This document shows, in pieces, positions 2,827 to 54,893 of a stretch of 64,000 bases of DNA (position 1 is the stretch's first letter; every line of letters begins with the position of its first letter). Location: positions 8,742,001 through 8,806,000 of the forward strand of contig JAVTVX010000010.1 of the NCBI GenBank assembly GCA_033439265.1. Reading direction: 5' to 3'. The notes beneath the pieces are model-generated. The model saw nothing but the letters and a program-made list of their open reading frames with translations, ran no database searches and was not told where the DNA came from. Position numbers and translations under genes: made by a program. Origin of the DNA: Dillenia suffruticosa. Taxonomy: Eukaryota > Streptophyta > Magnoliopsida > Dilleniales > Dilleniaceae.

Positions 2827-3094
2827 TGACGGATAAGTTTTGTTCTCTTAATATAATAAAAATCGGATATTTATCTTGATATATGATAATCTATTTTTTT
2901 TAAGTAGGTAAGTTAGTCGACACATATAATTTGCAAATTTAGTTACTCAATTTCTTGTTTATTTACTATTTTATTCTTAAATTTATATATTTGATTTGTT
3001 AATATACTATCTTTTGTTTTTCTATAGATCATTAGAAAAGATTTCTTGACATATTGGTATCTTGTTTCGTCGCAAATAATTTGTCAAATTAAAT

Positions 3095-28194: not shown

Positions 28195-28199
28195 GGAAC

Positions 28200-31364: not shown

Positions 31365-31367
31365 TTT

Positions 31368-32060
31368 CACTACAAAAAAAACCCATTTTAGCGACGGATT
31401 TAGGGACAAAACAATTTTCGTCGCTAATGACGCGTCGCAAAAATTTAGCGACAAATTCGGCGGATTCGTCGCGAATTTAGGGACAAAAATATTTTCGTCA
31501 CTAAAATCCGTCGCTAATTTAGCTACAAAAAAGTTTTTGTTCCTAAAACTTTGTCGCTATATTAGCGACAAAAATTATTGGTCGCCAAAATCCGTGGCCA
31601 AATTAGCAACAAAAATATTTGTCGCTAAAATTCGTCGCTAATTTGGTATAACAATCCGTCGCCAAAGTTTTGGGACGGATAAGGTTCGTCGCTAAAAATC
31701 ATCGCTAATTTAGCTTCAAAAAAGTTTTCGTCCCTAAAAGTTGTATTTCGTCGACAAAATCTGTGCCAATTTAGCAACAAAAATATTTGTCGCTAAAATT
31801 CGTCGCGAATTTGACTATAACAATCCGTCGCCAAGATTTTGGGACGGATAAGTTTTGTCGCTAAAATTCGTTGCTAATTTGACTATAACAATTCGTCGCC
31901 TTTTGGGACGGATAAGTTTTGTCGTTAAAATCCGTCGCTAAATTTAAAAACGGAAAAATTTTATAAAGTTTAGCGACGAATATCTTTTAGGAGATTTCTT
32001 CTACGAATTTTTTTTCTAGATTTTTTTGGCTAAATTTGGCCGCGACGGATTTTAATAAAA
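31368..32060. repeat. Left terminal inverted repeat and subterminal repeats
   Basis: The TIR CACTACAAAAAAA is followed by about 20 AGCGACAAAA / CGTCGCTAAAATCCGTCGC words in both orientations. This is the 3' side relative to the transposase genes. Confidence 0.9.
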
Positions 32061-32455
32061 AATAAATTTTGTTTTTTGGCCTATTAATTAAAAAAATGTT
32101 ATCCATATTATTTACAATCCAACCAATATCTCATCAATATCCATTTCAACTAATAAACCATAAAAAAAAATTCATTCCAACCAAAATATATATAGAACTC
32201 CAAAATGAAATGTCAAACATCATAATATATAATTAATAGTTGCACTACACTGCAATCAAATAAATAATATAAATATAGTGAAATATAAAACATCCAGATA
32301 ATATACCACCGACCACCACTAACACCAAGTCGTTATCTTGATCTTCATCCACAACTCATTATCTCACTAGGTCTTCATTTAATCGGAAGGAGGGGGGCAA
32401 AGAAGGGTCAGTCATTTTCTGGTCTTCATTTCATCAGGAGGGGGGCAAAGAAGGG
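32061..32455. other. 3' flank of the TNPA-like gene
   Basis: AT-rich DNA between the subterminal repeats and the stop codon at 32,456. It includes a short direct repeat (TCATTTTCTGGTCTTCATTT / TCATTCTGGTCTTTG with GGGGGGCAAAGAAGGGTCAG) at about 32,380-32,475. The polyadenylation site is presumably here. Confidence 0.5.
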
Positions 32456-35400
32456 TCAGTCATTCTGGTCTTTGTTTGGGTCATCAGCAGGCAAAGAAGG
32501 GGGAACGTGACTCTGACTCTGTGACGGAAGAAATTGACTTGCATCCAAATTGAGGTGCTGTAAAATAAGTCTTTGTGTTACCTCAAGTGATTGTCTGATT
32601 TCTTTGATTTCTTCATCTTTTTTTGCAAGTTGCGCTTTGATTTCTTCGTCTTTCAATGCAAGTTGTGTTTTGAGGTCATGTACTTCTTTATCTAGTTGCA
32701 TTTCTTTTCTTGAAGCCATCGCTGTAGAAGATGGACATATAGAAGATGGACCTGGTGTGTACATTCTGCTCAATGATCCCATCCCAAGAATTCTTCCCCT
32801 TTTTATCCCACCAGATGCCTCTAACCACAAAGCCATACTATCGACAGATGGCTCAGATAAGGGATCAGATAAGGGATCATGATCAGCACTACTTGAATTC
32901 ATCAACAAAAGTTCATTATATTTTTTCTGTATTATTATGACAAAAAAAATTACAATAAAACTATAAGAAAAAACAAGTTATGAATAAGTAAATCACGTAT
33001 GATGATAGAATTGATAGAAAAAAAAGCTGTTGCATTGATGCCATCGCCTCTGAAGCAGAGCTACTATACTATACCAAGAAAGAGAAAGAGAACTTAACTC
33101 ATGCTATAATCATATATAATGATAGACATAACTATGGTGGAATTTTTTTTAGGAGTAAATTATATAAAAAATTCAAATTTATCAGTGTAACAAAATCTTA
33201 TTATACAAAAAAATATATTAATTAAAAGAATAATTTGCACCGGGTTGATGGGTTGGTAGCTATGCTAAGAAAAAAAATTATAGAAATTTAAGGTTCGATT
33301 GACTCATTCATAACACATTAGACATTATACTAACAATTTGACAATAACACTAACTTTTGCAACCATATTTTGCAACCATATTAAATGACCACTTGACAAT
33401 AACACTAACTTATACCGAAAAAATTATCTCAAATGGTTGTTTTGGTTCTGATGCAAATTTTGGTTTGATATGATTTTTTTAGTTTCATTGATTTTTACCC
33501 ATTTTTACTATTCTTTTCATAGTTTCATTTCAATAGTGGTGTTAAAATTAGAAAAAAATCAATTACATGTGGTTCGGTGCTCCTTATTTGAAAATTTGAG
33601 TTTGTCTAATTAAATAAATCCCATATATATACACGATGCTACCAGGTCATTTTCAAAGCAATAAATCAATAAAAAATAAATAAATTAAAAAGTCAAAAGA
33701 AAAAGTATAATATAAACAATGTTGCTAGAGAGGCTTATCCCCACTGCCAAAGAAGAAATATGAATTGGTGAATTGGATCTGAATTGGTGAATTGGTGTGT
33801 CCGGTATGAGTTTTTTCTCACAATAACTTACTGTTCTTACTGTAATATTTTTAACATAGACCCCACACCTATATATTATTGTCAATGCACCACTTTTTTA
33901 TCTTACAAAATTGGTAAAATAAACAGTCGAGAGAGAGACAGATTCCATTTTTTATATGTACAAGAAAATTAAACAATATCCAGGTCTTTGATATGTACAA
34001 GAAAATGAGACAAGATAAAGGATAATATAAAGGATAAAGTAAAAGAGAATATGTTCCAGTCTCAAATATAATTGATTTGGGAGTAATATAATTGATTTGG
34101 GAGTTTATAATGATTATTTTTCAAGTGAGCTAGGGATCGACAAAATTGTTCCAAACCGGGACTTGTGTAGCTAATTTTGAGTGTCAATTATATGAAAGAA
34201 AGGAATCAGTAATAAATTTTTATTAGGTTAGGAGGATCACAAGTTTTTATATAATTCATGCAATGATAACATGTTAATATTCTGGATTCAGCAAAGTTAA
34301 TGAATTGAACCAAACTTTGATGGGAAAAACCGCAACAAAATATGTCATTTTCTTTGGTCATTTTCACAAAGGGAAGAGCCAAAAATCAATCTATCCATCT
34401 ACACTTTCGATACATTAACCTATGGAAACAGAAAGATATTTGAGAGAGAAATGATGAGACCCAAACTTATAATTATCACTTCCTAGTTCCAAATCTGTAG
34501 GTTAGCCTATAAAATTTCTCATTACCATTAGCAATGGGAATCCATCAGCCAACACTAAAATACCAACACCAGCCAACACTAAAATACCAACACCAACATA
34601 CCGAAATGTCATTTCCTCCTTTTCTCTGATAAGATTCTATAGATGCAAAATCGAAAAGCAATTACTTTGATTAATAAAAATCAAAATTAAAATGTATGCT
34701 TGGGAGTGAAGACCATTTACATTATATCATATTGTATTAAAAAAGGAAGGAAAAAATAGATGCATGTATATTTATCGTGCAAGAGAAGGAGAAATCTAGG
34801 CCTATGGAATTGTAATTTTAATTGTCAAAGTTTCAATTACATACCGATATTACTTTTGCTCTCTCCCCGCTCCAAGTGTTGTCCTTCTTTTGAAATGTTC
34901 GCTCAAAAGTGTCGATATATGATGGCTCAAATCCCTTTTCCTTGGCCTAAAAAAAATTTAAAAAAGAATCATTAAAGTTAACAATAATAATGAAATAGTA
35001 AAAAAGAATTAAATGAATTAAATCAAAATATAAGTGTTTGAAATAGTTACCAATCTTTTTCTATGTTCATCCACATTGATTGATCCCCCTGCGTAAGTGG
35101 CAGACGCTTGCCCAGAGTTACAAGATCTATTCCTTTTATTCTGCTCACTTCTTTTTTTGCTATCGTCCGACTCCCAAATTGCCAACATTCTTTGCCAATT
35201 TTCCTCCATGATGCAATTTGGTTTCTTCCGATTTGTTTTGGCTTTATTGATCACATTTCGAATGTGATCACCAGCTTTTTTTTTGAAATTTCTTCTTATC
35301 TCAGTCTCTTCTGATTCAGCCCAACTAAACCTCCGCTGCAATAAACAAAGAAACAATTATCTTAATTAAGGTAAAAATTTTAATGAATGTATAAATTTTA

Positions 35401-35935
35401 AGATAAAATTTACCTTAAATTCTCTCCACCATAATTCCTTTGTTTCATTCTCCGTGCTTGTGTAATTCATTGATATCCCTCCCCAATGATTATTAACAAT
35501 TTTATTTATAATACGCACCACATATATTGGGTCTGAGAATCTATATGTAAACAATTTTTTTTATGAGCAATGATAAATAATTAAGTTAAATTAAAGAACC
35601 ATATATATAAATAAAATAAACAAATGAAGTAAAATTTTAAAATTAAATACTTACGAATCTCCACAAGCGGATATGAAGTTTCGCTCTATACTTGTATCCC
35701 CCACATCATTTGATTGTTGCACAGAAGGTGAAGGTGCAACTGATGGGACTGAAGCAGAAGGACATGGGGAAGGGGACGGCGAAGGGAAAGGATAAGGGGA
35801 AGTGCTTGATCTTCCTTGTGAAGTTCGAACATGTCCTCCACGTTTATACTAATAAGCATAAATATTAAACAAATGACAAAAATAACAATTGCATGTTTTA
35901 ACGATACATAAGAAAGGGCATGAAAAACTTACCAT
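32456..35935 (-). CDS. TNPA-like CACTA transposase (PF03004, Ptta/En/Spm family), intact
   Basis: Predicted CDS complement(join(32456..32926,34845..34946,35051..35335,35414..35540,35655..35848,35933..35935)), 393 aa. All introns are GT-AG, the frame is kept across every junction and no internal stop occurs. The first exon is only the ATG. Next come a Ser/Pro-rich segment, a conserved core (HWGGISMNYTS, ELWWREFK, IRRNFKKKAGDHIRN, EENWQRMLAIWES, GGSINVDEHRKRL, WSGERAK) and a C-terminal coiled coil (KEVHDLKTQLALKDEEIKAQ). In En/Spm the TNPA protein binds subterminal repeats and works with TNPD; here that role is inferred, with the GCGACGGA words as candidate targets. The last intron (32,927-34,844) is 1.9 kb. 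The decayed copy at 3,095-5,058 has the same exon plan. Confidence 0.85.
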
Positions 35936-36201
35936 ATTCAAACTTTTGTAACCAATAAAATGTTATCAAGAGTCCAACTACTAAATCGAAATAATCTACA
36001 AAAAAAAACAAAGTATTAGGTTTGGACGCGAACATCGTTTAAAATTAGAGAAATACAAAATTAGTGATTGATAAAAGCAAAAGCAAATGTGTGGATAAAT
36101 AAATAAATGATGTATAATAAAGATAATTATATCATAAGGAAGCAAATTGAAATGTATTACATTGAGCATATCTATGTGTACAAAACTAAACTTACCCGGT
36201 T

Positions 36202-39200
36202 TTAAAAATCAAAATTTTCATTGTCATCTCCACTTTCACATTCATCTCCATCACCGTCACTGTCCTCATCCTCATCTTCATCCTCATCGTCGTCCTCGTC
36301 CTCGTCCTCGTCCTCAGTATGAAAATCTGATTCTTCATCGTCATCTCCACAAATTTCATTTGGATCGACATCTATAATTGCTCCACATGGATCTCGTAAA
36401 GTTGAAATATCATATTCCTCCGTTTGAATCGTGGTAGTAACTTCTTCTTGTTGATATGCTATATCAACCCAATGCTCTTCAATTTTTTTCCGTGCTTTTG
36501 TTTTGCATACAGCCCACCAATCAGTTTTGTCACGTTTTAAACTAGGATATGATGCATAATATACTTGAATTCCTTGCTGTGCCAATATAAATGGTTCATA
36601 TTTGTTATACTTCTTCTTATGATTTATTTCAATCAAATTATACTTTGGATGCACCTTCATTCCTTTGATGGGGTCAAACCAAGTGCACTTAAATAATACC
36701 ACTCGCAAATCTGCTCCAGGATACTCTATCTCTATGATTTCATCCAATAAACCATAAAAATCATCTTTTATACTTCTATTATTGGATGACCGAACACATA
36801 CTCCACTATTCATTGTGACTTTTCCAATTCCATATTCTTGGGTGTGAAAATTAAACCCATTTATAAAATATGATGGCCACGTTCGTACATATGAATTTGG
36901 ACCCCATGATAGATGATATAACAATCTTTGTTCAACTTGATCAGCATTGGCATGAACATTGGCATGAACCTAAAGGAAAGTAACCAAACTATTATCGTTA
37001 AGTAATGATTAAAAAACAAAATATGATGGGAACTTGATAGATAAGTACTTACATATGTTTTGAACCATGTTGCAAATTTCTCATCGCACAGACGATCAAA
37101 TGCCTTGTTAGGTAGTTCCGAAAATGAATTTTGAAAAATCCTATCATAAAATATCACTTATATATTATATAAATTTTTTACCCAAATAAAATATGTAAAG
37201 GCTGCTTCATTTCTTGACCAGTTAAAACTATATACTTACTCAAAATATGGTCCCACTTCTGGACAGTTCAATAAAATATATGTATGGGCTGCTCGCAATT
37301 CTTGACCAGTTAAATATCTTCTCTTCCATGCTCCATTAGTTCGACCAAGATAATTGAAAATAGAAAATGATGAAAAATTGGGATCGATAGGGCCCTCGTC
37401 ATTTCTTCCTGCTCTTCGCCTCTTGCACTGTACGTGAGGCTCAAAATAATACGATGCAAATGTTGTCACTTCCTCCACAATATATGCATTAACAATAGAG
37501 GCTTCGACCCATGCCTTATTCTTCACTTTTTTCTTTAAATGATATAAAAATCTAATAAGAAAAAACATTAAAAGATTTTAAAAATAAATCTATAATGAAG
37601 TATTATTTTGAAAAAAATAATATAAATATTTCACCTCTCAAACGGATACATCCATCGAAATTGTAAAGGTCCTGCAACTTTTGCCTCATAAGGCAAGTGA
37701 ACTAAGAGATGTTCCATAGAATCAAAAAACGACGGAGGAAATATCCTTTCTAAGTTGCATAGAATAATTGGAATATCTCTCTCTAGTTTCTCCATGTTTG
37801 ATAAGTTTAACACCGTTGAGCAAATGTCATGAAAAAAAATACTTAACTCCGTAATGGCACCCCAGACAAAATTTGGTAAAAGTTCTTTAAACGCAATTGG
37901 AATTAGTCTTTCCATAAATATGTGACAATCATGACTCTTCAAACCTGTCAACTTGCACTCATTCAAATCAACACATCTCCCAAGGTTTGAAGCATATCCA
38001 TTAGGAAACCGCACCATTTTCAACCACTCACAAACAATCCGTCTCTGATCCTTGTTCAATGTATAAACTGCCTTTGGCTTTGGTCCCTTACTACTTGCAT
38101 CGACATCTAATGTAGATCGATTACAAACAACTCTCATATCTTTTCTTGCACTCAAGTTATCTTTTGTTTTTCCAGGAATATCCATAACTGTATTTATAAC
38201 ATTATCAAAAACATTCTTTTCAACATGCATGACATCGAGATTATGACGCAGAAGATGGAATTTCCAATATGGTAAATCCCAAAATATACTCTGTTTTGTC
38301 AATTTATGCGTACTTCCATAACCAACAGTGGTACCATGAGGGTCTTCAATAGCAGATGGAAAGTTATGCACTTGTTCCCAAATTTGATCACCAGTCAATC
38401 TCAAGGGTGGAGGTGTTTTTTCAACCCTATTTTTAATGAACTCAACTTTATTTCTTCTGAATGAATGATTTAGTGGCAAAAATTGTCTATGACAATCAAA
38501 ATAGCTCGCCTTCTTACCATATTTTAATCTGAAAGACTTTGATTTCTGCATACATATCGGACATCCTAAGAGACCAGCTCTACTCCACCCAGATAACATA
38601 CCATAAGCTGGAAAATCATTTATCGTCCAAAAAAGAGCAGCCTTCAAGAGGAAATTCTGATCAGAATGGACATCATATGTATAAATACCTTCATCCCATA
38701 GTTGTTTTAACTCTGCAATCAGTGGCTGCATATAAATATCTATTAATTTTTTTGGATTTTGTGGGCCAGGTACGAGCAATGTCAGAAACATATATGGCGT
38801 TTTCATACACATACCAGGCGGTAGATTGTATGGAGTTAAGATTATTGGCCAACATGAATAAGTTTTTCCCGATTTGCCAAATGGAGCAAAACCATCCGCA
38901 CAAAGACCCAATCTAATGTTTCGAGGCTCTTTTGCAAAGTCAGGATATATTCTATCAAAATGTTTCCAAGCCTCTGCATCTGAAGGATGACACATGAGAC
39001 CCTCTTCTGTTTGATGGTTTGCATGCCACATCATGTGTTCAGCAGTGGCCTTAGATGCATAAAGCCTTTGCAATCGGGGGATTAAGGGCAAATAAAACAT
39101 TTGCTTATATGGTTTCCGCTTGCGACCCGACCTCCTACTACTCTTGTACCTAGAATGGTTACAAAATTTACAAAATTCTGCATTGTCATCATCCCTCCAA

Positions 39201-39985
39201 TATAACATACAACCCTGATTACATACATCAATCCTTACCACAGGAAGACCCAAGTCTTTCACTAAATTTTTCATATCGTAAAGATCAGTTGGGATGATGT
39301 GATCACGAGGCAGTACTTCTCGAATTACTTGAACAAATTCATTGAAGCATTCCTCAGAGACATTATATTCTGCCTTGATATTTAACAGTCTTGATGTCAC
39401 TGATAACTTAGTATGAGTGTCACAGCCTCCCCACAAAGGTTGATCTGCAGCTTTCAATACTTCCCCAAACTGATCAGACAAAAAACGTTTATTACTTGCA
39501 TTCTCATCGACACCTGTTACTTCTACCTCCTGCGATGGTTCTGCATCACTAATATATACTTGTTCAAATATTGGAGCACAACTGGTACTTGCATGGTTCG
39601 ATTGTAAGACAACATTATCAGCTGCATCAATTATCATTCTCTGATATGGGTTTAAATGGTTGTAATCATATTCTCCTCTATTGGAAAATTGTCTACTTCT
39701 TCCATATTCTTCCTCAGATATAAACGGTTCACCATGACAAGTCCAATTATAATAATTCGAAGTAAAACCAAATCTACAAAGATATTCCCTAACTTTATCA
39801 CACTTATAAAATTTACCATTACTGCACTTTCTACAAGGACACCTTAACTTATTTCCATCCATAAACTCAACTTTACTATTAGCAAATTCCAAAAATTGTT
39901 CCAATCCAATACGAAACTCATCGGTCAATCCTCGACGGTCAGGTAAATTCTTATTATACATCCACGCTCTATTATTTTGCATCAT
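36202..39985 (-). CDS. TNPD-like CACTA transposase (PF13963-PF02992-DUF4218-DUF4216), intact
   Basis: Predicted CDS complement(join(36202..36969,37053..37140,37240..37551,37635..39985)), 1,172 aa. Junctions are GT-AG, phases fit and there is no internal stop. The domain order is an N-terminal transposon-associated region with CPCRKC (residues 49-54), then Transposase_21 from about residue 290 (LPLIPRLQRLYAS, LCADGFAPFG, NDFPAYGMLSGW), DUF4218 (VWGAITELSIFFHDIC, continuing in exon 2), DUF4216 in exon 4 (EYGIGKVTMNSG, DWWAVCKTKARKK) and a long Asp/Glu-rich tail. The aspartates in DGFAPFG and NDFPAYG are candidate catalytic residues of the DDE-type CACTA transposase; that assignment is inference. 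The reaction is cut-and-paste transposition in the nucleus. It lies 266 bp upstream of the TNPA-like ATG on the same strand, so the two may share a transcript by alternative splicing, as in En/Spm. Confidence 0.88.
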
Positions 39986-40300
39986 CTCTCTACAAATTCA
40001 AATTAAAAAGAACAAAAGCTTTGATAAGAGGAAACGGACTTATATACATGAGATTTATTTGAATAAATAGGCAACCTCTGATTTTATCCTTTAATTTTTT
40101 CAAGAGAGAACTTTTGAAAGGAAAAAGATATTTATGAACACAAAGGTTTTATTTTTAAATCCTAACGAACCATAGGTACTCCCAAAACATATAAAACATA
40201 AAACATATGTGGTACAATTCTATAAAATATGTGCTAATAATTTAAAATAATCATTTAAAATAATCATTCAAGACAAACAAATACAAATAGTTAACCTACT
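39986..40300. other. 5' leader or upstream region of the TNPD-like gene
   Basis: AT-rich with no open frame of note. A candidate leader; I could not fix a TATA box. Confidence 0.4.
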
Positions 40301-40308
40301 TCTTCAAC

Positions 40309-40435
40309 AAGATAGAAATCAACCTACTTCTTCAACAACAAATAGAAATCAACAGACAAAGTAACATAGAGATAGAAATCAACCTACTTCTTCAACAACA
40401 AATAGAAATCAACACACAAAGTAACATAGAGATTA
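40309..40435. repeat. Tandem repeat, about 60-bp unit
   Basis: GATAGAAATCAACCTACTTC, TTCAACAACAAATAGAAATC and ACAAAGTAACATAGAGA words recur in about two full copies plus a partial one, upstream of the TNPD-like gene. Confidence 0.8.
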
Positions 40436-40684
40436 TTTGATTAAAAATCAAGACCCACACAGTTAATCTATTCAAAATTAAACAGTTAAATTAAACATGG
40501 ATAAAGTGGTAGAAAGGAGGATTAGTGTAAACTTAAGATTTCCAAGAAATAAAGGTTCAAATGTATTTGGGGTTAAATTGCTATATTTATGGGTTAAATT
40601 AGTTAAGAATGTTTAAAAATATACGGAGAACAAGAGGCATATTGTACAACATAATATGAATATTTGGAATGATTTATATTTCCA

Positions 40685-41100
40685 TCCAGATGAGGAGGTG
40701 GAGAAGAGGAGAGAGGGATAGAAGACGAACCTGATAGATGAACCTGATAGATGAGCGCGGAAGAGAGAATAGCCTTCGATGAAGCTGACAGAGAGAGGAT
40801 AAGATGAAGAGACAGAGAGAGGATATGTCGAACCTATATCGAGGAAGAAAACATCAGACAAGATAAAAAAAAAAGATAAAGCAGGTGGAGAAGAGAAGAG
40901 AGAGGGAGAGCAAACGAACCTGATAGATGAGCGCGGAAGAGAGAATAGGCTTCGATGAAGCTGACAGAGAGGATAAGATGAAGAGAGAGAGCCGAACCTA
41001 TATCGCGGAAGAAAACATCAGACAAGAAAAAAAAAAGAGAAAGAAGATGAGGTGGATAAGAGAAGAGAGAGGGAGAGCAAACGAACCGAGAGGAGAGATG
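40685..41100. repeat. Tandem repeat, about 190-bp unit, two copies and a partial third
   Basis: The unit runs from GAGGTGGAGAAGAG through GCGCGGAAGAGAGAATAG, CTTCGATGAAGCTGACAGAG and AACCTATATCGCGGAAG to GAAAACATCAGACAAGA. It starts near 40,690, 40,884 and 41,046. Its place upstream of the transposase genes fits a promoter or enhancer repeat, which is inference. Frames through it on both strands are repeat artefacts. Confidence 0.8.
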
Positions 41101-41289
41101 ATCCGAGAAAACCTTCGCCGCTAAGTTAAAATGAGATGAGGTGGGAGCTAGTTGCTGGGTTGAGCATAATGAGATGATCAGGGATGAGGATGGTCTGGAA
41201 TGAATGAAGTATGCGAGGCCACGGAGAGAAGATGCAAGGAGGCTACGGGAGTTGCGGCAACTATGGTAATTAGGGTTCTCGGGCACGAA

Positions 41290-42125: not shown

Positions 42126-42149
42126 TAAAACCTCAAGCATCCATCGGGC

Positions 42150-42825
42150 GCCATGCCACAGGACCGCGCTCCCCTTGCATGTGCGGGACGCGCTGCCCTT
42201 GCATGCGTGCCCTGCGCGAGCATGAGTGGGAGCCCGGGCGCCCGGGCTAGCTTGGCCGGGAGCCCGCGCTGCCCTTGCATGCGTGCCCTGCGCGGGCATG
42301 AGCGGGCGCACGGGCGCCCGGGCTGGCTTGGCCGGGAGCCCGCACTGCCCTTGCATGCATGCCCTGCGCGGGCATAAGCGGGCGCCAGGGCACGAGCGGG
42401 CGCACGGGCGCCCGGGCTGGCTTGGCCGGGACCCGTGCTGCCCTTGCATGCGTGCCCCGCGCTGCCCTGCATGCATGCCCTGCGCGGGCATGAGCGGGCG
42501 CACGGGCGCCCGGGCTGGCTTGGTCGGGAGCCCGCGCTGCCCTTGCATGCGTGCCCCGCGCTGCCCTACATGCGTGCCCTGCGCGGGCATGAGCGGGCGC
42601 ACGGGCGCCCGGGCTGGCTTGGCCGGGAGCCCGCGCTGCCCTTGCATGCGTGCCCCGCGCTGCCCTGCATGCGTGCCCTGTGCGGGCATGAGCAGGCGCA
42701 TGGGCGCCCGGGCTGGCTTGGCCGGGAGCCCGCGCTGCCTTTCCCGGGTGCTGTGTGCGATGCTGTGCGCTGCATGCGCATGCCACGCTGTGGCGCGCGG
42801 GTGCCAGGCGGCCCATTGCATAGGA
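42150..42825. repeat. GC-rich minisatellite, units of about 75-105 bp, about six copies
   Basis: The unit contains CTTGCATGCGTGCCCTGCGC, GGGCATGAGCGGGCGCACG, GGCGCCCGGGCTGGCTTGG and CCGGGAGCCCGCGCTGCC. All six frames stay open over parts of it, giving long but repetitive translations (up to 270 aa), which I reject as genes. It lies just 3' of the 563-aa ORF. Confidence 0.9.
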
Positions 42826-42983
42826 ACCAAAAAAATTAAAAATGAAATAAATAAGAAAAATAAGATAAATAATTTACATTCAATATTTACGTTTTTGATT
42901 CGGTACATGAAAAAAAAAATTGATACACGAAACTTCTTAAAAAAAAAAGTAAAACTACTTGAAAAAAAGGGAAAAATATGGAA

Positions 42984-44675
42984 TTATGGAAATTGAACTT
43001 TTGGTCGAAATTTTTTTGGTCTCGGTTCAGTGGTTGGTTGTGAAGAGGATGCAGATCCTTGACTCGGAGAAGTCCCAGCAGTCCCAGCAGCAGCAGAGGA
43101 TGATGGTATTCCTCTTATCACTTCATCGATACGAAAAGGGTTTGGATCATGTGTCGGATGTGTCGGTCTGGGAGGAGAAGCAAATGACGATCTTGGAGGA
43201 CGAGGACGAATGACGAATGGGTAGGCCGGGTAGGCAGCGCTCCCTGGTCGCGCTGTTGCGGAGGAAGATGGTCCTGATTGCATGGTTGCTGAGGAAGATG
43301 GTCCTGATTCCGTGGTTCCGAGCCGCAAATGATCTCGTATAACCTTAATAAAATTACTATTCACCCCTAAATCCGCCTCCATGTTCATCATGCGACCTAC
43401 CATTTTCATATGATCTTGTTGGTTCTGGTCCTTAAAACGATGATCATGTACCCTAAATTCATCAAAATTATGTCTTAATTCAGTCAATTGTGTATGCATT
43501 TGTCCGATTTGTTTTCTTGATTCTCCCACTTCACTCCTAACCTCACCAACTTCACTACACACCTGTCCTACTTCGTTTCGAACACTATCTAATTGCAATT
43601 TCATATTATTCATATAATCAAACAATTCTTCCCACCTTTTTTTTTCAATTTCAATTTCATTTACATTATCACGAGAATTATCAAAATGAAAATCATGATC
43701 TTCAACTCCTTCCTCCCTTTCATGAAAATGAAAATCATGATCATCCGCTCCTTCCGCATGTTCCGCCCTTTCATGATCTTCTTCAGCTCCTTCCGGCACT
43801 GGGTTTGGCTCTGGAATACTTCTTTTTTTAATATATATCCAAATACCATCTTCACATACCCAATACGCCCTCCTTAAAGTTCTATAATTTATACTATTTT
43901 TATTTATATTTAATTGTAAATGATTTTCTTTCCCTAGATTTATTCCATGACTTTTTAAAATACCACTCACCATACTACAATAGGATAAATTATTATTAGA
44001 ATCTTTTGAAGATATCATAAAATAAGGAAGTAAAAAATGTAAATCTGGATTTTTTCTTTCAATTATACGTGCCATTAACCAAAAATCATCTCTAGTAATA
44101 GATGTATAATTTCCGGCCCGTGGTTTAATAACATGAATAATGAGAAAATGAAGAACTCTTTCTTGAAAATTTAAATCAGTAGCATTTGTACTAAAAAATT
44201 CTAAATTATCATTATTAAAAACTATTTTAGCATCCATTAATATTTCCGTATTTAAATACACTGCACAGTCTTCATATTCTGTCCAACAAAGATCGGCCTC
44301 TCTACATATCATTTTAGGACTCACTTTAATTATTTGACCATCAAAATAACTTTTAAAACTACAGGAAGTTATATTCCCATCGATAACTACACAATCATTA
44401 TCCATTCTTTTTATGTTATTAAAAAAAATTCTAACAACGTTTTCATAAATATTTGTATCTGGATTAAGAATCCAAGACGGACAAATCTCTTTTAAATAAC
44501 TTCCATATTCAAAATTTATACTATCCAAAAAATTCCAATCAATTAATCTACCCAAAGTAATATTTCTATGAGAAAATACCTTATCAAAGAGATTTTTTTT
44601 TTGCATAGATGGAAAGTGTTTGTTTTCTTCCGAAACCATGGTAATTCGTTTTGCTTTTCTGGACGAGGAGGCCAT
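42984..44675 (-). CDS. Putative plant transposon protein (PF20167/Transposase_32-like) with coiled coil
   Basis: Intronless, 563 aa from the ATG at 44,675, which has the favourable context AACATGGCC; the frame is also open 33 bp upstream but without ATG. The N-terminal part (about 1-290) reads like the putative plant transposon protein family: RLIDWNFLDS near residue 43, then HFLIIHVIKPRAGNYTSITR, KNPDLHFLLPYFM and VSGILKSHGINLGKE. Residues about 300-350 are acidic and His-rich with a repeated DHDFHF motif. About 355-440 form a coiled coil with a VRSEVGE-type heptad repeat, and the tail is Ser/Pro-rich, ending in basic PRPKKFRPK. The function of this family is unknown. It lies between the TIRs of the CACTA element and on the same strand as its transposases. 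It could be an accessory element protein or an acquired sequence. Confidence 0.7.
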   Translation of the reverse strand: MASSSRKAKRITMVSEENKHFPSMQKKNLFDKVFSHRNITLGRLIDWNFLDSINFEYGSYLKEICPSWILNPDTNIYENVVRIFFNNIKRMDNDCVVIDGNITSCSFKSYFDGQIIKVSPKMICREADLCWTEYEDCAVYLNTEILMDAKIVFNNDNLEFFSTNATDLNFQERVLHFLIIHVIKPRAGNYTSITRDDFWLMARIIERKNPDLHFLLPYFMISSKDSNNNLSYCSMVSGILKSHGINLGKENHLQLNINKNSINYRTLRRAYWVCEDGIWIYIKKRSIPEPNPVPEGAEEDHERAEHAEGADDHDFHFHEREEGVEDHDFHFDNSRDNVNEIEIEKKRWEELFDYMNNMKLQLDSVRNEVGQVCSEVGEVRSEVGESRKQIGQMHTQLTELRHNFDEFRVHDHRFKDQNQQDHMKMVGRMMNMEADLGVNSNFIKVIRDHLRLGTTESGPSSSATMQSGPSSSATARPGSAAYPAYPFVIRPRPPRSSFASPPRPTHPTHDPNPFRIDEVIRGIPSSSAAAGTAGTSPSQGSASSSQPTTEPRPKKFRPKVQFP

Positions 44676-44699
44676 GTTGATGAGTTTGGAGGTGAGTTT

Positions 44700-44999
44700 G
44701 GAGAGCACTAGAGAGGGGTTTGAAGAAGAGGGTAGGAAAGAGCCGTGAGTGAGTGATTTGGTGAGCGAGGACTGAAGTTTGAAGTTTGTTTGTTGGTGAC
44801 TGAGTGTGTGCCTGGATGAGTAAGGGAGTTAAGTAAATAGCACCAGCCGTGTAGTGTGTTAGTTCGTTATCTAGAGTGCAGATAGATAGCTGGATAGTAG
44901 AGTAGAGTGTTGGGTGGTGTTGTCAAATATCGGTAGATAGAGTCCAGAGCATAGCTATGCAGAAATAGAAATAGAAATAGGATGCAGAAATAGAAATAT
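44700..44999. other. Upstream region of the 563-aa ORF
   Basis: Purine-rich plus strand (GAGTTTGGAG, AAGTTTGAAGTTTG repeats), that is, a CT-rich leader on the minus strand as is common in plant 5' untranslated regions. No TATA box is assigned with certainty. Confidence 0.4.
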
Positions 45000-45640
45000 A
45001 GGTTAGGTTGGAGTGCAGAGAAGTGAAGTGCAGTGGTGAAGTGTAGCTGGAGATAGTGAGAAACAGTGCAGTGCAGCGGGAGTTGTGGAAATTTGAAGTT
45101 GACTGTTTTGAAATTTTGAAAGGCACGGACTGTGGCAGCAGCAGCGTTTCCTGTCGTTGCAGCAGAGCCTGTTCGCATGTGAATGTGCGTGGCGTGGACT
45201 GAGGGGAGTGCTGCGATGCGAGGAGGAGCATCGTGGCAGCAGCGTGAAATTTTGAAATCTAACTGTTGGCATGTGAATGTGCGTGGCGTGGCGCGGACGG
45301 GTGTGCGAGGTGGACTCCATTGTGATGAACACATCAATTCATGTCGTGGCTGCCAGCTTTTAACAGTTAACAAGTGACCATCAATTCATGTCAATAGGTT
45401 AGGTTGGAGTGTTGAAGTGTACTGAAGTGTAGCTGGAGAGAGAGCGCAGAAAGTGGAAATTTCGTGGCAGCAGCGTTCACTGAAAGGCGCGGACTGAGTG
45501 GAGTGCAATGTGCGACGTGGAGGACTCCTGTCGTGGCAGCAGCAGCGTTTCCTGTCGTGGCAGCAAAGCCTGTTCGCATGTGAATGTGCGTGGCGCCGAC
45601 TAAAGGGAGTGCTGCGCGCGTTCAAATTTTGAATTGATGG
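45000..45640. repeat. Diverged tandem duplication, about 395-bp offset, upstream of the 563-aa ORF
   Basis: GGTTAGGTTGGAGTG occurs at 45,002 and 45,397, and GTTTCCTGTCGTNGCAGCA at 45,147 and 45,548. GCATGTGAATGTGCGTGGCG occurs three times (about 45,175, 45,270 and 45,576). The region is less AT-rich than its surroundings. Frames in it are not supported as genes. Confidence 0.8.
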
Positions 45641-48600
45641 TGAACAGAAGCATTAAACAGGCCTACAGCTGAATCCAGTTGTCTATCTCTTCCATGGCAG
45701 GACTTGTGCAGTGCGGACATCATCTTATCACGACTCCAATCACGGTTGTCAGTCGTCGGGCCTCTTGTCCTTGTGTGGAACGGAATGTAACCATCACAAG
45801 AGACAGTTTTCCAACTTCACAACTCTCAAAATTTTAAATTTTAAATGCAATTAAAAGATAATATTTATACTCCGCTATTTATAAATATATTAAATTTAAT
45901 AGCTATTTATAAAAATATTAAATTTAATATTTTGTATAGAGGAAATTACTATCTTCTTTTTTATAAATATAATACTTTAAATAATAATAATTGATAAATA
46001 TGTAACATGATTTAATCTTCATCTTACATTTATCCAACCCAGTCAAATCTATTTTTTAAACTTCATCCCAATAATAATCCCAATAATAATGGAAAAAATC
46101 AATGAAAGGAAATGGCCATCAGAACCAAAATATGAAAATTATGAAAAATAAATATCCTCATTTCAAAAAATTTGTTGAAAAATTAATAATTTAATAAATT
46201 TGGTATTTATTTTCTTTTTGGGCACCACTTTTATTTATTTATTTGAAAATGATTCTGGATTTTTCAACAACATTTTTATTTTTATTATAACTATTGAAAC
46301 CTATTTTTTTTTAATCCTACTCATAATTTAACATAATTAAAAAAAAGCCAAGAACAATACTAGCCATCACATATACTCTCCCCTCCTCCTCCTCCTCCTG
46401 GCCATGGGAAAAGACAATGAACTTGTGGATTTGTGTGTGTGAGAGAGTGAGAGAGAGTGGGAGAGAGAAAGTGTACGGAACTCATTTTCTACACAATTCC
46501 ATTTAAATTCATTAAAATAATTCATTAAAATAATGAAATGTTAAATAATTGTAAAATTTATATATTTTTAAAATTGGTGGAGGTGAAAAATAAATGATTT
46601 GAGTTAATACAGATTTAAAAAATGTCTGTGGTGCGTGTGGTAAATGTGGTGCGTGCGGAATAATGGTGCGGAATAATGGTGGCACGGATATTGTGGAGTG
46701 GTAATCGAGCCAAAATCCAATCATGCCAGCCATAAATTCGTTCGATTCTGGCCACGCCCCATAAAGCCCCATAAATGCTTAGATTCATTGATCCTCTAAT
46801 TTGCCGCGCCCTCAGATTTGCCACGCCGATGCCGCAGAGGTTCTTGACATAAGAGTCTAGTGTTGAATAAGTATAAGAGTAGAGTAAGAGTGTTGAATAA
46901 GAGTAAGAGTTTAGAGTTTAAGAATTTAAGAGTTTAATGCTCAATAAAAGTAAGAGTTTAGTGTTGAATTAGTGTTGAAACTAAGGTCAAGAAATATGAT
47001 ACAACCCATTCAAAAATCTCAAAAATCATCCTATGCAAATCAATTAATTGAACAGAGAGGGAGAGAGGGGAGAGAGGGGAGAGAGGACATGATTCAAAAA
47101 AGAATTTTTATTTATTTAAAAATTAATTTTAAATTAAAAAATTATATATTTTATTCAAATTTTACTTTAAATAAAAGTATTAAAAAAAACTTTTAAGAAT
47201 ATCCTCCATTTATTTTATATATATATATATATATATATAGAACTTAAATTATTTTAAAGAAAATAAATAAAGAACAAATAAAGATGGGGAATTGATCCGT
47301 AAAAAAAATAAAGCTACAACTTTTGATTCTCCATAAAATTTTTTCAATAATATACTAACTCTTTTTTTAAATATATATACTTAAATATATATATATATAT
47401 ATATATATAGTTTGATATTGAATTGATTTCTATTTAAAAAATTAAATTTAAATACTAAAATTTGTATAATAATTTACATATTTTATAAATTACTAAACTT
47501 CAAATTAATATAATAAAATTTTGTTTTAAATTTGAAACTTTAGTATAATTTAAAAATTTAGAATAATTACCAAAGACTTATATTTGCTTATGTATGTATG
47601 GTGTGTGGTGTGTGGTGTGTAGTGTGTATTGTGTATGGAGTTTTACTTAAGGTGTGTGGTGTTAAGGTGAGGTGTGGTGTGTATTGTGTATGGAGTTTTA
47701 CTTTGTGGTGTTAAGTGGTGTTAAGGTGAGGTGATATGGTTTAGTTTACTTTTGATTTAATATATTTCATCTAATATAATAATTTTATCAAATCTCAAAT
47801 CTTTCTATCAATTAAACCCATCATTATAAATATTAATCTAAAATCTTTCAATCAATCAAACTCATAATTAAAAACACTAATTATAAACACTTACCCACTA
47901 ACACAATAAATACTAACCCCCTAACACACCAACACACTAGCTAAACTAAACTAAACTAAGGTTCATTATTAATCTATCAATCTTAAAATTTTACAATATA
48001 ATCAGATATATATATATATTTATATATATATATATATATAATATAATATAATCAATTACAAATTATAATAACTTCTTTTTTTTATTATTAGATTTTTAAT
48101 TTTGATTAAAAATATTAAGTTACTTATTATAAATTATTTGATAGATGTGGAGAAAAAAATGATAAAAGAAATTTTATTGTAATGTTAAAAATTTTATATG
48201 TAACTAAAATATGAAGGAATATTAAAAAAATATAATTAATAAGATAAAGAAAAATATATATATATTTTTTTAAGTTATAAAGCTGTTTTTTTTAAAAAAA
48301 ATATTATAAAAATATTTATTTTTTAAAATCTATCTACTTTTCTGGTCTCTAACTCTTTCTCTCTTTGGTCACCTCACTATCTTTCGATTTCCCCGTCTCC
48401 CCTCTCTACCTTTCCATTTCCCTCTCACACTCACACTCACACTCACACACACACACACATTGAAAATTTAAAGGCGCCACATTGAAAATTTAAAAATTTA
48501 AAATTTAATCCAATAAAAATTTTTCAAATTTGAAAATTTAAAAGGCTCCACATTGAAAATTTAAAAATTTAAAATTTAATCCAATAAAAATTTTTCAAAT

Positions 48601-49190
48601 ATGATTTAAAATATTTACCTAAACTTTTCATATTTTTATATGACACTAAATTAAATTATATCTTTATTAAATTATAATTAAAATTAAATCTATGATTATA
48701 TTTATGTTAACAAAATGAAATGACAAAATAATTACAAGATTAATTAATAATTTATTCTAATAAATTAATTAAGAGAGATATTAAATTAAATCACATAATA
48801 AAAACACTCCATCTAAAACTTAAATTTTATCTTATTATTATTATTTTTCTATTAAATTCTTTATTCAATATTAATTTATTAATTTATATTGTTCTTTAAA
48901 ATTTCCTTCTCTCTTTTCAAATATATTTTCTTTTAAAATATTTTTTTGCCTATATTAATTATTAAGTTTAGGGAAGTATTAATATAAATAATTTAGTTAT
49001 TTATATGTTTTTTTAAATTAATAATATTATTAATTAATATATGAAATGATATAAATTTATTATTTTATATAATAGTGTTATGATATATTGTAATATATTA
49101 TTATAATATATTATACTTATTTCATGAATTTTATTTTTTTTTAAATCGTAAAGGATTTTTTTTTCTTAAAAAGAATTGAAGAAAATGAGA
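45640..49190. other. AT-rich filler of the giant CACTA element with simple repeats
   Basis: Over 3.5 kb without a supportable gene. It includes (TCC)n at 46,382-46,399, a GA/GT tract at about 46,433-46,470, (TA)n at 47,215-47,240, 47,384-47,410 and 48,005-48,045, and GTGTG-rich repeats at 47,595-47,740. A (CA)n/CTCACA tract lies at 48,424-48,462 and a duplicated 71-bp unit at about 48,474-48,615. Confidence 0.6.
48474..48615. repeat. Tandem repeat, about 71-bp unit, two copies
   Basis: CCACATTGAAAATTTAAAAA followed by TTTAATCCAATAAAAATTTT occurs twice in direct orientation. Confidence 0.85.
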
Positions 49191-49197
49191 TAAGTGC

Positions 49198-49335
49198 CGG
49201 GATGAAATTTCTTTAGTGATGCACGCCGCTCGGGCTCCCCACAAGAAGGCATGCGTCGCATGTGACACGCGCCCGCGAGCCAACACGCCCGGGCCCCGCT
49301 ATAGCATCTGGGGAGGAGCTTGCGGTCTTTTTTGT
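49198..49335. repeat. Isolated GC-rich island
   Basis: About 130 bp with GCATGCGTCGCATGTGACAC, GCGCCCGCGAGCC and CGCCCGGGCCCCGC words, sharply bounded by AT-rich DNA. It shares CGCCCG/GCATGC vocabulary with the other islands. Confidence 0.65.
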
Positions 49336-52300
49336 TTTTGTTTTTTTGTTTCTAAATATTTAAATTTTTAATATTATTATTTTATATTATTATTTTATTT
49401 TAAGTTGTTAATATTATTAATTTAAATAATGTGTTTTTAAAATTTTTTATCAATTAAAAAAATTAAGTAATAATATTAATATTAATTTATTTAAATTCAC
49501 ACTTATTTTATAAATAATAACCCAATTTCTATTTTACTACCAAATTACCCTTTCTTTCTTTACCTAATTTAAAAACACAACAAAAACATTTTTTTTTTAA
49601 TTTATGTAAATGATTTCTAGTTAATATGATGATTTCTATTTAATATATATATTCAATTTAATACCTATATAAACTATAAATACACCTAAACTCTAAACTA
49701 TAAACTATTATAATTTTAAATTTTTGAACAAAAGGCATCTTTTATTCATACATGTTTCTTTCTCGCATCTTTTATTCATATTCATACATTTATATAATAA
49801 TGATAGAAAATTTGCTAAGTTTCATAAATTATTTTAAAATTGAAAAAATCTTTATATGAAATCTATAAACTATATTAATTAATTCTATAAACTATATTAA
49901 TTAATTTAAAAGATGTCAAATTAATTAATATTAAATGTATTGATTAATTTTAATCATTAAATGTGAATTATTAAATGTTAAATGTCAAATGAAACCTACT
50001 CATTAATTTTAAAATGTCAAATATAAAAATATGTTGAGATATACTTGAATTTTGTGGTGTGCAGGTGGAATCACTATAATATTTAATATATTGTAATTAT
50101 AATACTATATTATATAAAATTAGATAAATTCATTTAAAATAATATTATTAATAATTGTTATTTTTAAATATATAAAAGCATAAAAAAATTACTCCAATAA
50201 AATTTTAAGTAAATAAGTAATAAGTGTGATAGGTGTGTATAGTAAATAAGTTATAAGTTGTAAGTATTAGTAAAAGTATGAAAAAAATTTAGGATTAAGA
50301 AATTAGAAATGCCGCCGAAAATTGTTTGGGAAAATCTTTGTCACCGCCATTCAACCTGTTTTTAAAAATTTTAAAGTTTCTTCTTACATCTTTATTTTCA
50401 TTCATCAATTCATTTACATGTGATTATTATAATTTATTATTTACAATATTTTACTATTTATTTTTAATAGGCATAAAAGTAAATAAATAAATTTATTAAT
50501 GTTTATTATATTTTTGTAATTTGTTTTTAGTCAAAAAAAAGGAACATTATTTTGTGATAAAATGATAGTGTAATATTTTCAAAATATATCAATTTTATTT
50601 AACACATAAAATTATAATATATTTATATATAATATAATATTATATTTTATAAAATATAATATTATAATTGATTCACATATATTATAATAATATTTGATAA
50701 TAGTTGAGTTGAGTTGACTCCGTTCCACAATCATTTTCATAATTGAAAATATTGTTGAGCGGTCATTTCGATAAATATGTTTTTAATAGGAAGATTCTGT
50801 GATAAGAGAAATCAAACAAAATGACAAAATGACAAAATGACAAAATGACAAAATGCAGTGTTCTGTGTTGGTGTAGAAACAAATGGGATTGAGATTTGAA
50901 AGTGTGATAAAAAATATGTGAGAAATCGCTTGTCACAATTTTAATATTTTAGATTCTTCTTAGAAATTCATAATTAATTAAAACAAATCCAAATCTACTC
51001 ACCCAATTTAAATTTAAATGATCTACTCACCCAACAAATGATGTTTTTTTCTATTATAATATTTATCGGACATCTTATTATATTATTGATATTATTATAT
51101 TATTGATATTATTGATATTATTGATATTATTGATTGAAAATTGCTAAATTTCTTTTATAATTGTTATAGGTGATGAGATTTTGTGAATTCAATAGAGGAA
51201 TAGAGAAAGAAGAAAGAAGACTAGAGAAAGAAGAAAAAGAAGAAGGAATAGAGAAAGAAGAAAGAAGACTAGAGAAAGAAGAAAAAGAAGAAAGAAGGTT
51301 ACGCTTTCAAATTTATTTTTGTTAAGCTTTCAAATTTATTTTTGGTAAGGTTTAAATTTATTTTTCAATAAATTTAACAATTATTTATTTTATGTGTACA
51401 TTTTTTATTTTGTCAAAGAAGAAGACTTGAATTCCCAGAATGAATTCCCAGAATCCCAGAATGATTTCGTAGACTTTAATTGTTTGGATGAAAAAAAACA
51501 TCTAAATTTTGAATTTAGTTAAAATTGAATTAACTTTTAAAATTGAATTAACTCATGAGAATTGAATTTAGTTAGAAGATGGACATTTTCTATTTATTTT
51601 TTATATTACACGATTAATTACTGATTATTAATCTCTACCACCAGTCAAATATCATTCTTTAATTTTTTTCATCTACTTATTATTCTTATTATTATATTTA
51701 TTATTATATTTAGTTGTCTCGGGTGCAGAGAAAGCAAGCACAAATGAAAGTGGGGCTGAAAGCCCAAAAGAAAGTGGGCCGAAACCAAGCTTGTATTTGT
51801 ATTTGTATGTCTTATTTAATTTTTTTTTTATATACTCTTAGGTTTTATTTTTCTTGTAATTTTTAAATTTTATTACTTATAGTTTCATTTTATTTTTCAG
51901 GATTTTTTTGAGAACAATTTTTTTTCTCAAAACTTTTATTTGTGGATGATTTTATATTGAAGATGAAGAAAAAGAGGAAAATGAAAGATGGAGGAAAAAA
52001 GTTTCAAACAAGAGAAAAGAAAAAAGGAGAACAGAAAAAAAATAGGAAAGAAGGAAAATTGAGAGGATGATGGATTGTGATTTGATGTATAAAAAATATT
52101 TTCTTTAATATTTTTAAACACCCATATTTATACACCACTACCTATAACATATTTTCTCAAAACAAAAATTACCGTTAGTTTATTTTTATTCTTTTGATTT
52201 TTTTTTTTACACTTTACATTGGGTTTATTTTGGGTTTGGTTTACTTGACCAACCCAGCCAGCCTTGTTTATTTATTGATGAAAGGTGAATGTTTCATCGA

Positions 52301-52905
52301 GGAAAGTCAACCTTGATGGACTTGATCGATGTGAGTGAGTAGCAAACTTCGTCAATCAAGCGCTCAGTGAGCTTTTTTTTTTTTTCTTTTTCCATGTATA
52401 AAAATATATTTGAAATTTTTTTGATTTTATGAGATATGATAACACTATTTTTCTGAAAAAAAAAATAATCGTATTTTTGTTTTTTATATTTATTTTGAGT
52501 TTTCAAATATTAGCATATATGATATAGGTATTTTTTTTTCTCCTCAAATTGTACTCATACTATGGCATCATATTTTGTGATCGATAAAGAAATTTTCTTC
52601 CAATATTTATCGCCATGCCAAAAAAAATTTAAATTAAGTATTCAATATTAATTAGACTCGGAAAAAAATATTTAAATCTCATTTTTTTGTAACATATTTT
52701 CAAAATTCAAAATGTGCTAAAATAAAATAATATCCACTAAGAATCCAAATTATATTTATAAACACATTTATAACTTCATAAATATTAAAATTACAAATAT
52801 TAATTTATTATTTGTATGCTCCAAATTCTAATATTAAAAACTAGAGCAATAATAAATTTAAATAAAAATTATAAATAGATATTTATAATTTTTAATATTT
52901 ATAAA
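49336..52905. other. AT-rich filler of the giant CACTA element
   Basis: About 3.5 kb of AT-rich DNA with simple repeats: (ACAAAATG)n at about 50,818-50,855, ATTATTGAT repeats at 51,080-51,135 and a purine repeat at 51,190-51,297. Short Phe/Lys-rich frames (for example the minus strand near 51,936-52,506) are low-complexity and not supported as genes. Confidence 0.6.
51190..51297. repeat. Purine-rich tandem repeat
   Basis: AATAGAGAAAGAAGAAAGAA and GACTAGAGAAAGAAGAAAAA occur twice in direct orientation, giving a long all-purine strand. Confidence 0.85.
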
Positions 52906-52909
52906 TTTA

Positions 52910-53215
52910 AACTCGCGGGCGCCTGCTAGCATGGCCGGACGCCAGGGCAAGCCAAGCTTGCCCGCATAGTGGCATCCCTGGACGCCCGCGCTGCATCAGC
53001 ACGTAACAAGGGCGCCCCAACTGCCACTGCCATCCCTGGGCCCCACGTGGACCCCGCTGCCATGCGCGCATGTAGCGCGCGGGTGCCGTGCTCCCATGGT
53101 CTGGCGCCTGCGTTGCCATGCGCGGGGGCTTGCATGGGTACATGCAGCGCACGGTGTCATGCTCGGACGCCAGGCATGCCAGGGCGCCCGCGATCGTTCT
53201 TGCGTGAGCACATGC
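52910..53215. repeat. GC-rich island with minisatellite character
   Basis: Words such as CGGACGCCAGG, GCGCCCGCG, CATGCGCG and GCATGGGTACATGCAGCGC recur. Open frames on both strands (up to 105 aa) overlap it and are attributed to base composition. Confidence 0.75.
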
Positions 53216-53395
53216 ATATCTCAATTTATTTATTTATAAATATAAATTCTATAAAAATTTAAAATAATTAATAAAAAATACAAACAAATTAATTATATTA
53301 AATTAAATTATATTAAGTTACATTAATAAAATTAACAAAAATAATAAAAATATACATAGTTTATCTTCTGATATCTTATATCTTATATATCTTAT

Positions 53396-53442
53396 GTGCG
53401 GGCGGGCGCCGGCACTGGCATGCCCGGGCGCCCGCGCTGGAA
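53396..53442. repeat. Short GC-rich island
   Basis: GCGGGCGGGCGCCGGCACTG and GCATGCCCGGGCGCCCGCG, the same words as at 785-810 in the nested element. Confidence 0.7.
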
Positions 53443-53774
53443 GCACAAAATGCACTTTGATATTTCACCCGGCCCACATTTACTCTCTAAATTTTATTAT
53501 AAAATTTAATATTTATATAATAAATATTTACTCACCTTTCCTCTCTAAATTTTATATATAAATTTAAAATATAACAAAAGTAAAATGTAATATTTATATA
53601 ATAAATATATAATATAATTTGATATAATAAATAAATTATATTTTATTTTAACCCGAATAGGACCATTTTCAAAATTTTTACTAAATTTCGGGTATGATGA
53701 TTTTATATAATTTAATAAAATAACAATATTAAATAAAATATTAAATAATAATAAAAAAATTGGCCAGTTAGCCG

Positions 53775-53935
53775 GTTAGCGACGGATATGAATCCGTCGC
53801 CCGTTAGCGACGGATAAGAATCCGTCGCCAGTGAGCGACGGACATAATCCGTCGCTAAGAAATAACATGGCGACCAGCGCGCAGGCCGCCCAGGCAGGCG
53901 CCCGGGAGTGCATGCGCCGGCGCCCGCGGAATTTT
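53775..53935. repeat. Palindromic GCGACGGA repeats next to a GC island
   Basis: Three GTTAGCGACGGAT ... ATCCGTCGC hairpin units (53,775-53,860) are followed by a GC-rich stretch with GCGCAGGCCGCCCAGGCAGG and GCGCCGGCGCCCGCG (53,872-53,932). Confidence 0.8.
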
Positions 53936-54134
53936 TATTTATTAAATTAATTAAATAATATATATTTTAATTAATACTAAATATATGGTTTTTTAAATAA
54001 TTAAATCATATTATTTTCCTAAAAATTTGAAATATAATAATAACATGTAAATTAAAATATTATAAAAAATTAATATGATTCGATAATATAAATTATTAAA
54101 TTATAATAAAATTAAAATAAAATTCACAAATTCA

Positions 54135-54415
54135 AGCGACAGTCGAAACAGCGACGGATTATGATGAAACAGCGAAGGATTATGAATCCGTCACCGATAC
54201 AGCATTGCCGACACAGCGACGGATTTTGAATCCGTCGCTGAAACAGCGACGGATTTTGAATCCGTAGCCGAAACAGCGACGGATTATTTATCCGTCGCCG
54301 AAACAGCGACGGATTATTTATCCGTCGCCGAAACGGCGACGGATTTCTAATCCGTCGCCAAAATAGCGATGGATTTCTATCCGAACTAGCGACGGATTTG
54401 GAAATCCGTCGCAAT
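54135..54415. repeat. Array of about nine 30-bp palindromic units
   Basis: The units are AAACAGCGACGGATTTTGAA then TCCGTCGCCG, each an inverted repeat around a short AT spacer. This is a dense candidate binding array near the right end of the giant CACTA element. Confidence 0.9.
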
Positions 54416-54629
54416 TACTACTAAATTAATTTTTTTCTTTAAATTTTAATTAAATTTTATGTTCTTTAATTATTTATAAAAAATTTAAGCCAAAATAAAT
54501 TTTAACTTCAATATAATATATTAATAAAATCAAAAGAAATATAAGAAAAATAAATTTCTATTTATTAAAAAAAACTAAATTCAAAAGAAAAATAAGAAAA
54601 ATAAATTTCTATCTATTTAAAAAATTTTC

Positions 54630-54890
54630 AGCAACGAATTTAGCCACGAAAATGTTTTTGTCACTAATTAGCGACGACGTTTGCTACGAATTTTATTTCT
54701 CCGTGGCTAATTTAGCCACAAGTATTTCGTCGTCGCAAAAATTGTGACAAAATGGCGACGAATAAATTTTGTCACTAATTTTGTCGCAAAATGGCAACGA
54801 ATTTGTTTTTGTCGCTAAAGTTGTCGCAAAATAGCGACGATTAGTTTCCGTCGCAAAATTTCGTGACTAAAACCGTGTTTTTTTGTAGTG
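54630..54890. repeat. Right subterminal repeats and terminal inverted repeat
   Basis: GCGACGAAT / TTCGTCGC / GTCGCAAAATGGCGACGAAT words end in GTTTTTTTGTAGTG at 54,890, followed by the TTT TSD. Confidence 0.9.
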
Positions 54891-54893
54891 TTT

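Follow-up and report, generated by a model that had tools for sequence, protein, structure and literature searches.

Among CACTA transposons, Candystripe1 is 23 kb long, and in En/Spm exon 1 of TNPA lies near the 5' end with TNPD inside its intron. The available part of the report on Tgmt*, a 20.5-kb CACTA element of soybean, gives 17 kb for Tam1 and 8.3 kb for En/Spm of maize (PMC2613891). Here we describe a 23.5-kb CACTA element, hereafter the giant element, in a window of 64,000 nucleotides (nt) from Dillenia suffruticosa (the whole stretch of DNA analysed; contig 10, positions 8,742,001-8,806,000; coordinates below are those of the window). Judged from its sequence, the giant element is very probably a complete, potentially autonomous CACTA (En/Spm-type) transposon belonging to a 23-kb multi-copy family, family A, and carrying a third gene, ORF3, that is selected, probably exchanged and likely accessory. 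Its large size and its plan are already known among CACTA elements. Like the giant element, En/Spm has CACTA ends, TNPD and TNPA and a 3-bp target duplication, whereas it is a third as long and has no ORF3; an earlier note on this DNA called the element nearly three times as long as En/Spm, and the size is not exceptional next to Tgmt*.

The structure as a whole recurs in the 596-Mb host genome. These searches scored the best candidates only, so that all counts of loci and matches are lower bounds: at least 40 loci matched TNPD exon 1, at least 148 ORF3, at least 114 the 5' end and at least 84 the 3' end. The four marks were scored together on 40 TNPD loci, 35 of the 148 ORF3 rows and 40 merged rows per end, with rows near TNPD chosen and neighbours merged by hand. 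ORF3 lay upstream on the same strand at 24 of the 40 TNPD loci, the 5' end was found at 27 and the 3' end at 26, and all marks stood in order at 22, of which 15 measure 23.2-23.9 kb and the others 21.5-32.5 kb. Ten other copies were read at both ends; nine are flanked by matching 3-bp duplications (CGT, ATA, ATG, TCA, CTA, CTA, TTA, AAA, TTA), including one with an altered CATTA end and one changed just inside CACTA, and the tenth has the mismatched flanks AAT/AAG. Since the ends, TNPD and ORF3 recur with their own 3-bp duplications, all 23.5 kb are transposed together. Copies with both ends and the same interior were the check proposed in the earlier note for a single element, and the 22 loci supply them; the outcome it had named as refuting, namely the left 10 kb and the right 13 kb occurring separately with their own ends and duplications, was sought as well, and the opposite was found. 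Amplification of family A appears to be recent, because 22 of the 40 TNPD exon-1 loci are at least 97% identical at the DNA level. Exon 1 is free of stops in five of 12 rows (at least 94% amino acid (aa) identity, essentially the full exon), the window copy included. With its many close copies and distinct duplications, family A would lend itself to the development of insertion markers. Not every member of the family has an intact ORF3, however, and general presence was rejected: the three older loci that were read (93-94% TNPD identity) have only a degraded ORF3, a broken copy at 74-75% (L065), a 155-aa remnant (L066) and the last 14 aa only (L064).

The terminal repeats of the giant element match at 13 of 13 bases and begin with CACTA, and the end scan together with flank reading confirmed the 13-bp identical inverse termini and the TTT on both sides that had been noted before. 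Exact CACTACAAAAAAA occurs three times in the window, with the third occurrence ending at 2,385, and not once in 100 shuffles. CGACG/CGTCG motifs number 14 in the 500-bp bins 31,001-32,000 and 25 in the bins 53,501-55,000, with eight scattered between. Features of the CACTA (En/Spm) superfamily that the element shows are CACTA ends, a 3-bp duplication, subterminal repeats, TNPD and a TNPA-like protein.

Both transposase genes are open, with coding lengths of 3,519 nt (TNPD, four exons, the sole stop being terminal) and 1,182 nt (TNPA-like, six exons, all five introns GT-AG), exactly as previously given and with no internal stop; the giant element is potentially autonomous. The TNPD exon frames match the Pfam domains Transpos_assoc, Transposase_21 (274.6 bits), DUF4218 and DUF4216, and motifs that we take to be DDE candidates are visible. 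The TNPA-like protein matches Transposase_24 with 84.2 bits against a cut-off of 28.7; in the gene model exon 1 is the ATG alone and the fifth intron spans 1,918 nt. In favour of this exon structure, a diverged relative at 2,386-4,240 retains the ATG/GT junction and seven of the eight splice dinucleotides of TNPA introns 1-4. Compared with the same relative, differences are in excess at third codon positions, with 27, 29 and 44 at positions 1, 2 and 3 in TNPD exon 4 and 24, 17 and 46 in TNPA exon 4. Alternatively, TNPA may be spliced from a far-upstream leader, as the available part of the Tgmt* report describes (PMC2613891).

The third gene, ORF3, is intact in the giant element and had been overlooked in the earlier note. 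The open frame at this place has 614 codons, compared with 185 for the longest in 200 shuffles of the surrounding 4-kb stretch. Its N-terminal match to PF20167 (Transposase_32) is weak, at 37.3-37.4 bits (E 3e-9) and below the curated cut-off of 45, which some other long frames in the host genome do exceed. A search of solved structures with ORF3 returned one chance-level row (E 0.72), viral contigs searched with ORF3 and TNPD exon 1 gave no match, and single-sequence structure prediction of the N-terminal 328 aa was of low confidence (mean predicted local distance difference test score, pLDDT, 33.9). Codon comparisons show that ORF3 is under purifying selection: the ratio of non-synonymous to synonymous distances (dN/dS) between the giant element and the distant locus L041 is 0.29 overall, with 0.18 in the first 290 codons (dS 0.51) and 0.42 thereafter, and against two near copies it is 0.14 and 0.19.

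At L041, the TNPD found 1.8 kb downstream of the open-frame relative of ORF3 differs strongly from that of the giant element (37% identity by tblastn, 41% in alignment); used as a query, it finds at least 59 loci, here called family B. ORF3 was located within 6 kb upstream and on the same strand in 21 of the 59 loci, and a PF20167 match in seven more, whereas uniform placement of the ORF3 rows would give about 0.01 such loci by chance; the count took in 59 TNPD rows, 43 merged ORF3 rows and 10 of 150 PF20167 rows. Beyond the scored count, ORF3 was seen on reading the DNA at family-B locus C34:10283203, and absence from family B2, suggested by the lack of a scored match, was rejected because ORF3 is present when the DNA is read. 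Identities of ORF3 are 71% between A and B1, 52% between B1 and B2 and 52% between A and B2, while those of TNPD are 41%, 84% and 41%, respectively. Between the giant element (A) and L041 (B1), dS is 0.61 for ORF3 and 2.34, near saturation, for TNPD. Because the ORF3 and TNPD distances conflict in a manner hard to explain by unequal rates alone, the simplest reading of these distances is that families A and B1 exchanged the ORF3 module, which we regard as probable.

A further, related group, A2, comprises at least 30 TNPD rows whose aa identity is 76-79%; 27 are free of stops and six share one score. It is a recently amplified, compact CACTA group (e.g., C15:4805659 and C30:12403724). In the two of 30 copies that were read, the CACTACAAAAAAA end and CGACG repeats lie 4.9-5.0 kb upstream of TNPD, and in this small sample no match to ORF3 was better than E 0.37. 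Because A2 was recently amplified and the copies read are without ORF3, this gene is most likely an accessory factor outside the cut-and-paste machinery. By analogy with En/Spm, TNPD would cut at the CACTA ends and join the element to a 3-bp staggered target, and TNPA would bind the CGACG subterminal repeats and bring the ends together; ORF3 may help with expression, silencing or target choice. Since A2 offers a natural comparison, it becomes testable whether plant DNA transposons trade accessory genes and what the job of ORF3 is.

Several observations weigh against this overall explanation. Among the matches scored, 16 of the 40 TNPD loci are without ORF3, and the exchange involves three lineages and is read from distances rather than from conflicting trees. 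Between L011 and L012, the closest pair of intact copies, ORF3 differs by three synonymous and five non-synonymous changes, giving a ratio of 0.42 with too few changes to judge. The frame from the first ATG is kept in only three of the eight closest copies (L010-L017), and at least four of the remaining five have an A-run of different length near codon 25; these shifts may fit relaxed need or decay, slippage or assembly error. In the 24 readable ORF3 loci, the A-run, near window position 44608 (codon ~25), measures 8-16 letters including the preceding base and is a possible slippage site.

ORF3 could be a mere passenger, i.e., a piece of an Athila-type retrotransposon or of a host gene that was captured once and has no role. 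PF20167 similarity is reported for the 3' extra ORF of Athila in sunflower in the available part of that study (PMC11728184), gene capture is frequent in CACTA elements, many ORF3 copies are broken and the A2 copies read do without the gene. However, between families dN/dS stays well under 1, it is also low when the giant element is compared with L011, and position and strand are constant in A, B1 and B2. An Athila origin finds no trace around ORF3 either: no pol domain was present in the 9 + 10 element frames scanned, a part of all frames, and self-comparison revealed no flanking repeats, so that derivation from an LTR (long terminal repeat) retrotransposon within the 5' region was rejected. 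On balance we regard the passenger explanation as possible but rather unlikely. More specifically on the side of function, ORF3 might be a selected CACTA accessory gene moving as a cassette between diverged families, acting as an anti-silencing or targeting factor like VANC, with the long 5' region and its repeats as its target or control region; in this full form the proposal is tentative and, at present, doubtful. ORF3 could also have been present in the ancestor of the entire CACTA clade and have disappeared from A2; exchange would then not have occurred, unequal rates alone would lie behind the conflicting distances, and the place of ORF3 ahead of TNPD in all three of A, B1 and B2 would fit; yet the far lower A-B1 dS of ORF3 than of TNPD, and a B1-B2 pair in which TNPD is so much better conserved than ORF3, make this improbable compared with exchange of the module.

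As both transposase genes are on the minus strand, the 13 kb beyond them, previously described as repeat-rich cargo, is the 5' side of the element. This stretch is the family's own recurrent 5' region, with ORF3 in it, rather than cargo, although the additional 5' DNA may have been acquired long ago, because the two A2 copies read have a 5' region of only about 5 kb that lacks ORF3. Within the A+T-rich interior, a 2-kb piece (49700-51700) has at least 125 matches in the genome, 16 of them full length; 15 of these lie inside loci that carry every one of the four marks (TNPD, ORF3 and the two ends), and the remaining one, on contig 19, has the 5' end but no TNPD row among the matches scored. The G+C-rich block at 42.1-42.8 kb showed no sequence relation to the blocks at 52.9-53.2 kb, in the small CACTA element or in the LTR element described below, and the 52.9-53.2 kb block matches the small element in short pieces only. 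That two elements, adjacent or nested, are present here, with ~10 kb bearing the transposases on the left and ~13 kb on the right, is extremely improbable: the left and right subterminal repeats do differ in detail and the 13-kb part has its own G+C-rich and A+T-rich blocks, but both ends, TNPD and ORF3 keep a fixed spacing in 22 of the 40 TNPD loci, a 2,685-bp relative combines one end resembling the left end of the giant element with another resembling its right end, the exact-match scan of the window detected no internal CACTACAAAAAAA end in the giant element, and segmental duplication as a way out is excluded for the copies read by their different flanks and duplications.

Features of the giant element in the window, with strand and remarks.
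Feature	Position	Strand	Remarks
Complete CACTA element, 23,523 bp	31,368-54,890		
Left target site duplication TTT	31365..31367	n/a	sequence read at ends
Terminal inverted repeat CACTACAAAAAAA	31368..31380	+	element 3' end in gene orientation
3' subterminal repeats, CGACG type, direct and inverted	31388..31941	n/a	
TNPA-like gene, 393 aa	32456..35935	-	exons 35935-35933, 35848-35655, 35540-35414, 35335-35051, 34946-34845, 32926-32456
TNPD transposase gene, 1,172 aa	36202..39985	-	exons 39985-37635, 37551-37240, 37140-37053, 36969-36202
G+C-rich minisatellite, 76- to 99-bp units	42164..42748	n/a	just downstream of ORF3
ORF3, third gene, 563 aa	42984..44675	-	weakly PF20167-like N-terminal domain, coiled-coil-like stretch, Ser/Pro-rich tail
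A+T-rich non-coding part of 5' region	46000..53300	n/a	
5' subterminal repeats, CGACG type	53821..54877	n/a	borders approximate
Terminal inverted repeat CACTACAAAAAAA	54878..54890	-	element 5' end in gene orientation
Right target site duplication TTT	54891..54893	n/a	sequence read at ends

The window contains further mobile elements. The 2,685-bp relative is a non-autonomous CACTA element at window -299 to 2,385 (read from L009 and the window), with both 13-bp ends, an AAA duplication and G+C-rich islands at 781-1040 and 1761-1980. It interrupts an older, degraded TNPD in its DUF4216 part; this TNPD belongs to a degraded relative of the giant element at 2386-6143 and upstream to about -3616 (TNPD ~70% aa identity; TNPA exons with stops); CAATACATAAAAA at 6143 is a possible 3' end, guessed from the sequence, and no ORF3 was found in the 16 kb upstream of its TNPD. 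A 224-bp miniature at 8072-8295 carries CACTA at either end and is flanked by GAA left and right, its ends matching poorly beyond CACTA. An LTR retrotransposon occupies 18587-28195, with 2.75-kb direct repeats that are 97% identical; matches to SH3_Tf2-1 and, weakly, to a chromodomain immediately inward of the right repeat suggest a Ty3 element of the chromovirus type. On the minus strand, the stretch 56439-60168 holds what is left of a copia-type retrotransposon, with RVT_2, gag_pre-integrs and SH3_retrovirus matches. A frame at 62746-63024 matches the CAP N-terminal motif with 22.8 bits against a cut-off of 19 and may be exon 1 of a host gene for a cyclase-associated protein.

In comparison with known systems, Tgmt* resembles the giant element in its large size, 13-bp CACTA ends, 3-bp duplication, asymmetric subterminal repeats, tnp2-type transposase and TNPA-like second product, and its 6,122 bp ahead of the first predicted exon (left border) recall the long 5' side seen here; it has, however, one large gene with alternative splicing shown by RT-PCR (reverse transcription PCR) and another subterminal motif, and no ORF3-type gene is described in the available part of the report (PMC2613891). 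Jozin and the quinoa CACTA elements of Chenopodium share the same Pfam set in ORF1 and Transposase_24 in ORF2, and captured domains, gene fragments and satellite arrays are reported for this group, including one 16.5-kb quinoa element with a satellite; they differ in the additional domains Peptidase_C48 and Transposase_24 in ORF2, and the available part of that study describes no PF20167-like gene upstream of TNPD (PMC8978399). The 3' extra ORF of sunflower Athila is close to ORF3 in encoding a ~500-aa protein with PF20167 similarity at a similar place (133-312), but it sits in an LTR retrotransposon and ORF3 in CACTA DNA transposons beside TNPD, as far as the available part of the source goes (PMC11728184). 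For a role, the VANC anti-silencing proteins of VANDAL (a Mutator-like element, MULE), accessory proteins beside a transposase, serve as a working model only, and TnpA of Spm is itself linked to demethylation (PMC10398659, available part); VANC belongs to a different superfamily and is likened to ORF3 by role alone, not by sequence. In the open-access literature, to which our search extended (subscription papers being outside it), we found no description of an ORF3-type third gene or of its exchange in CACTA elements. What stands out against these systems is a selected third gene upstream of TNPDs that are ~41% identical, apparently shared more recently than those transposases themselves.

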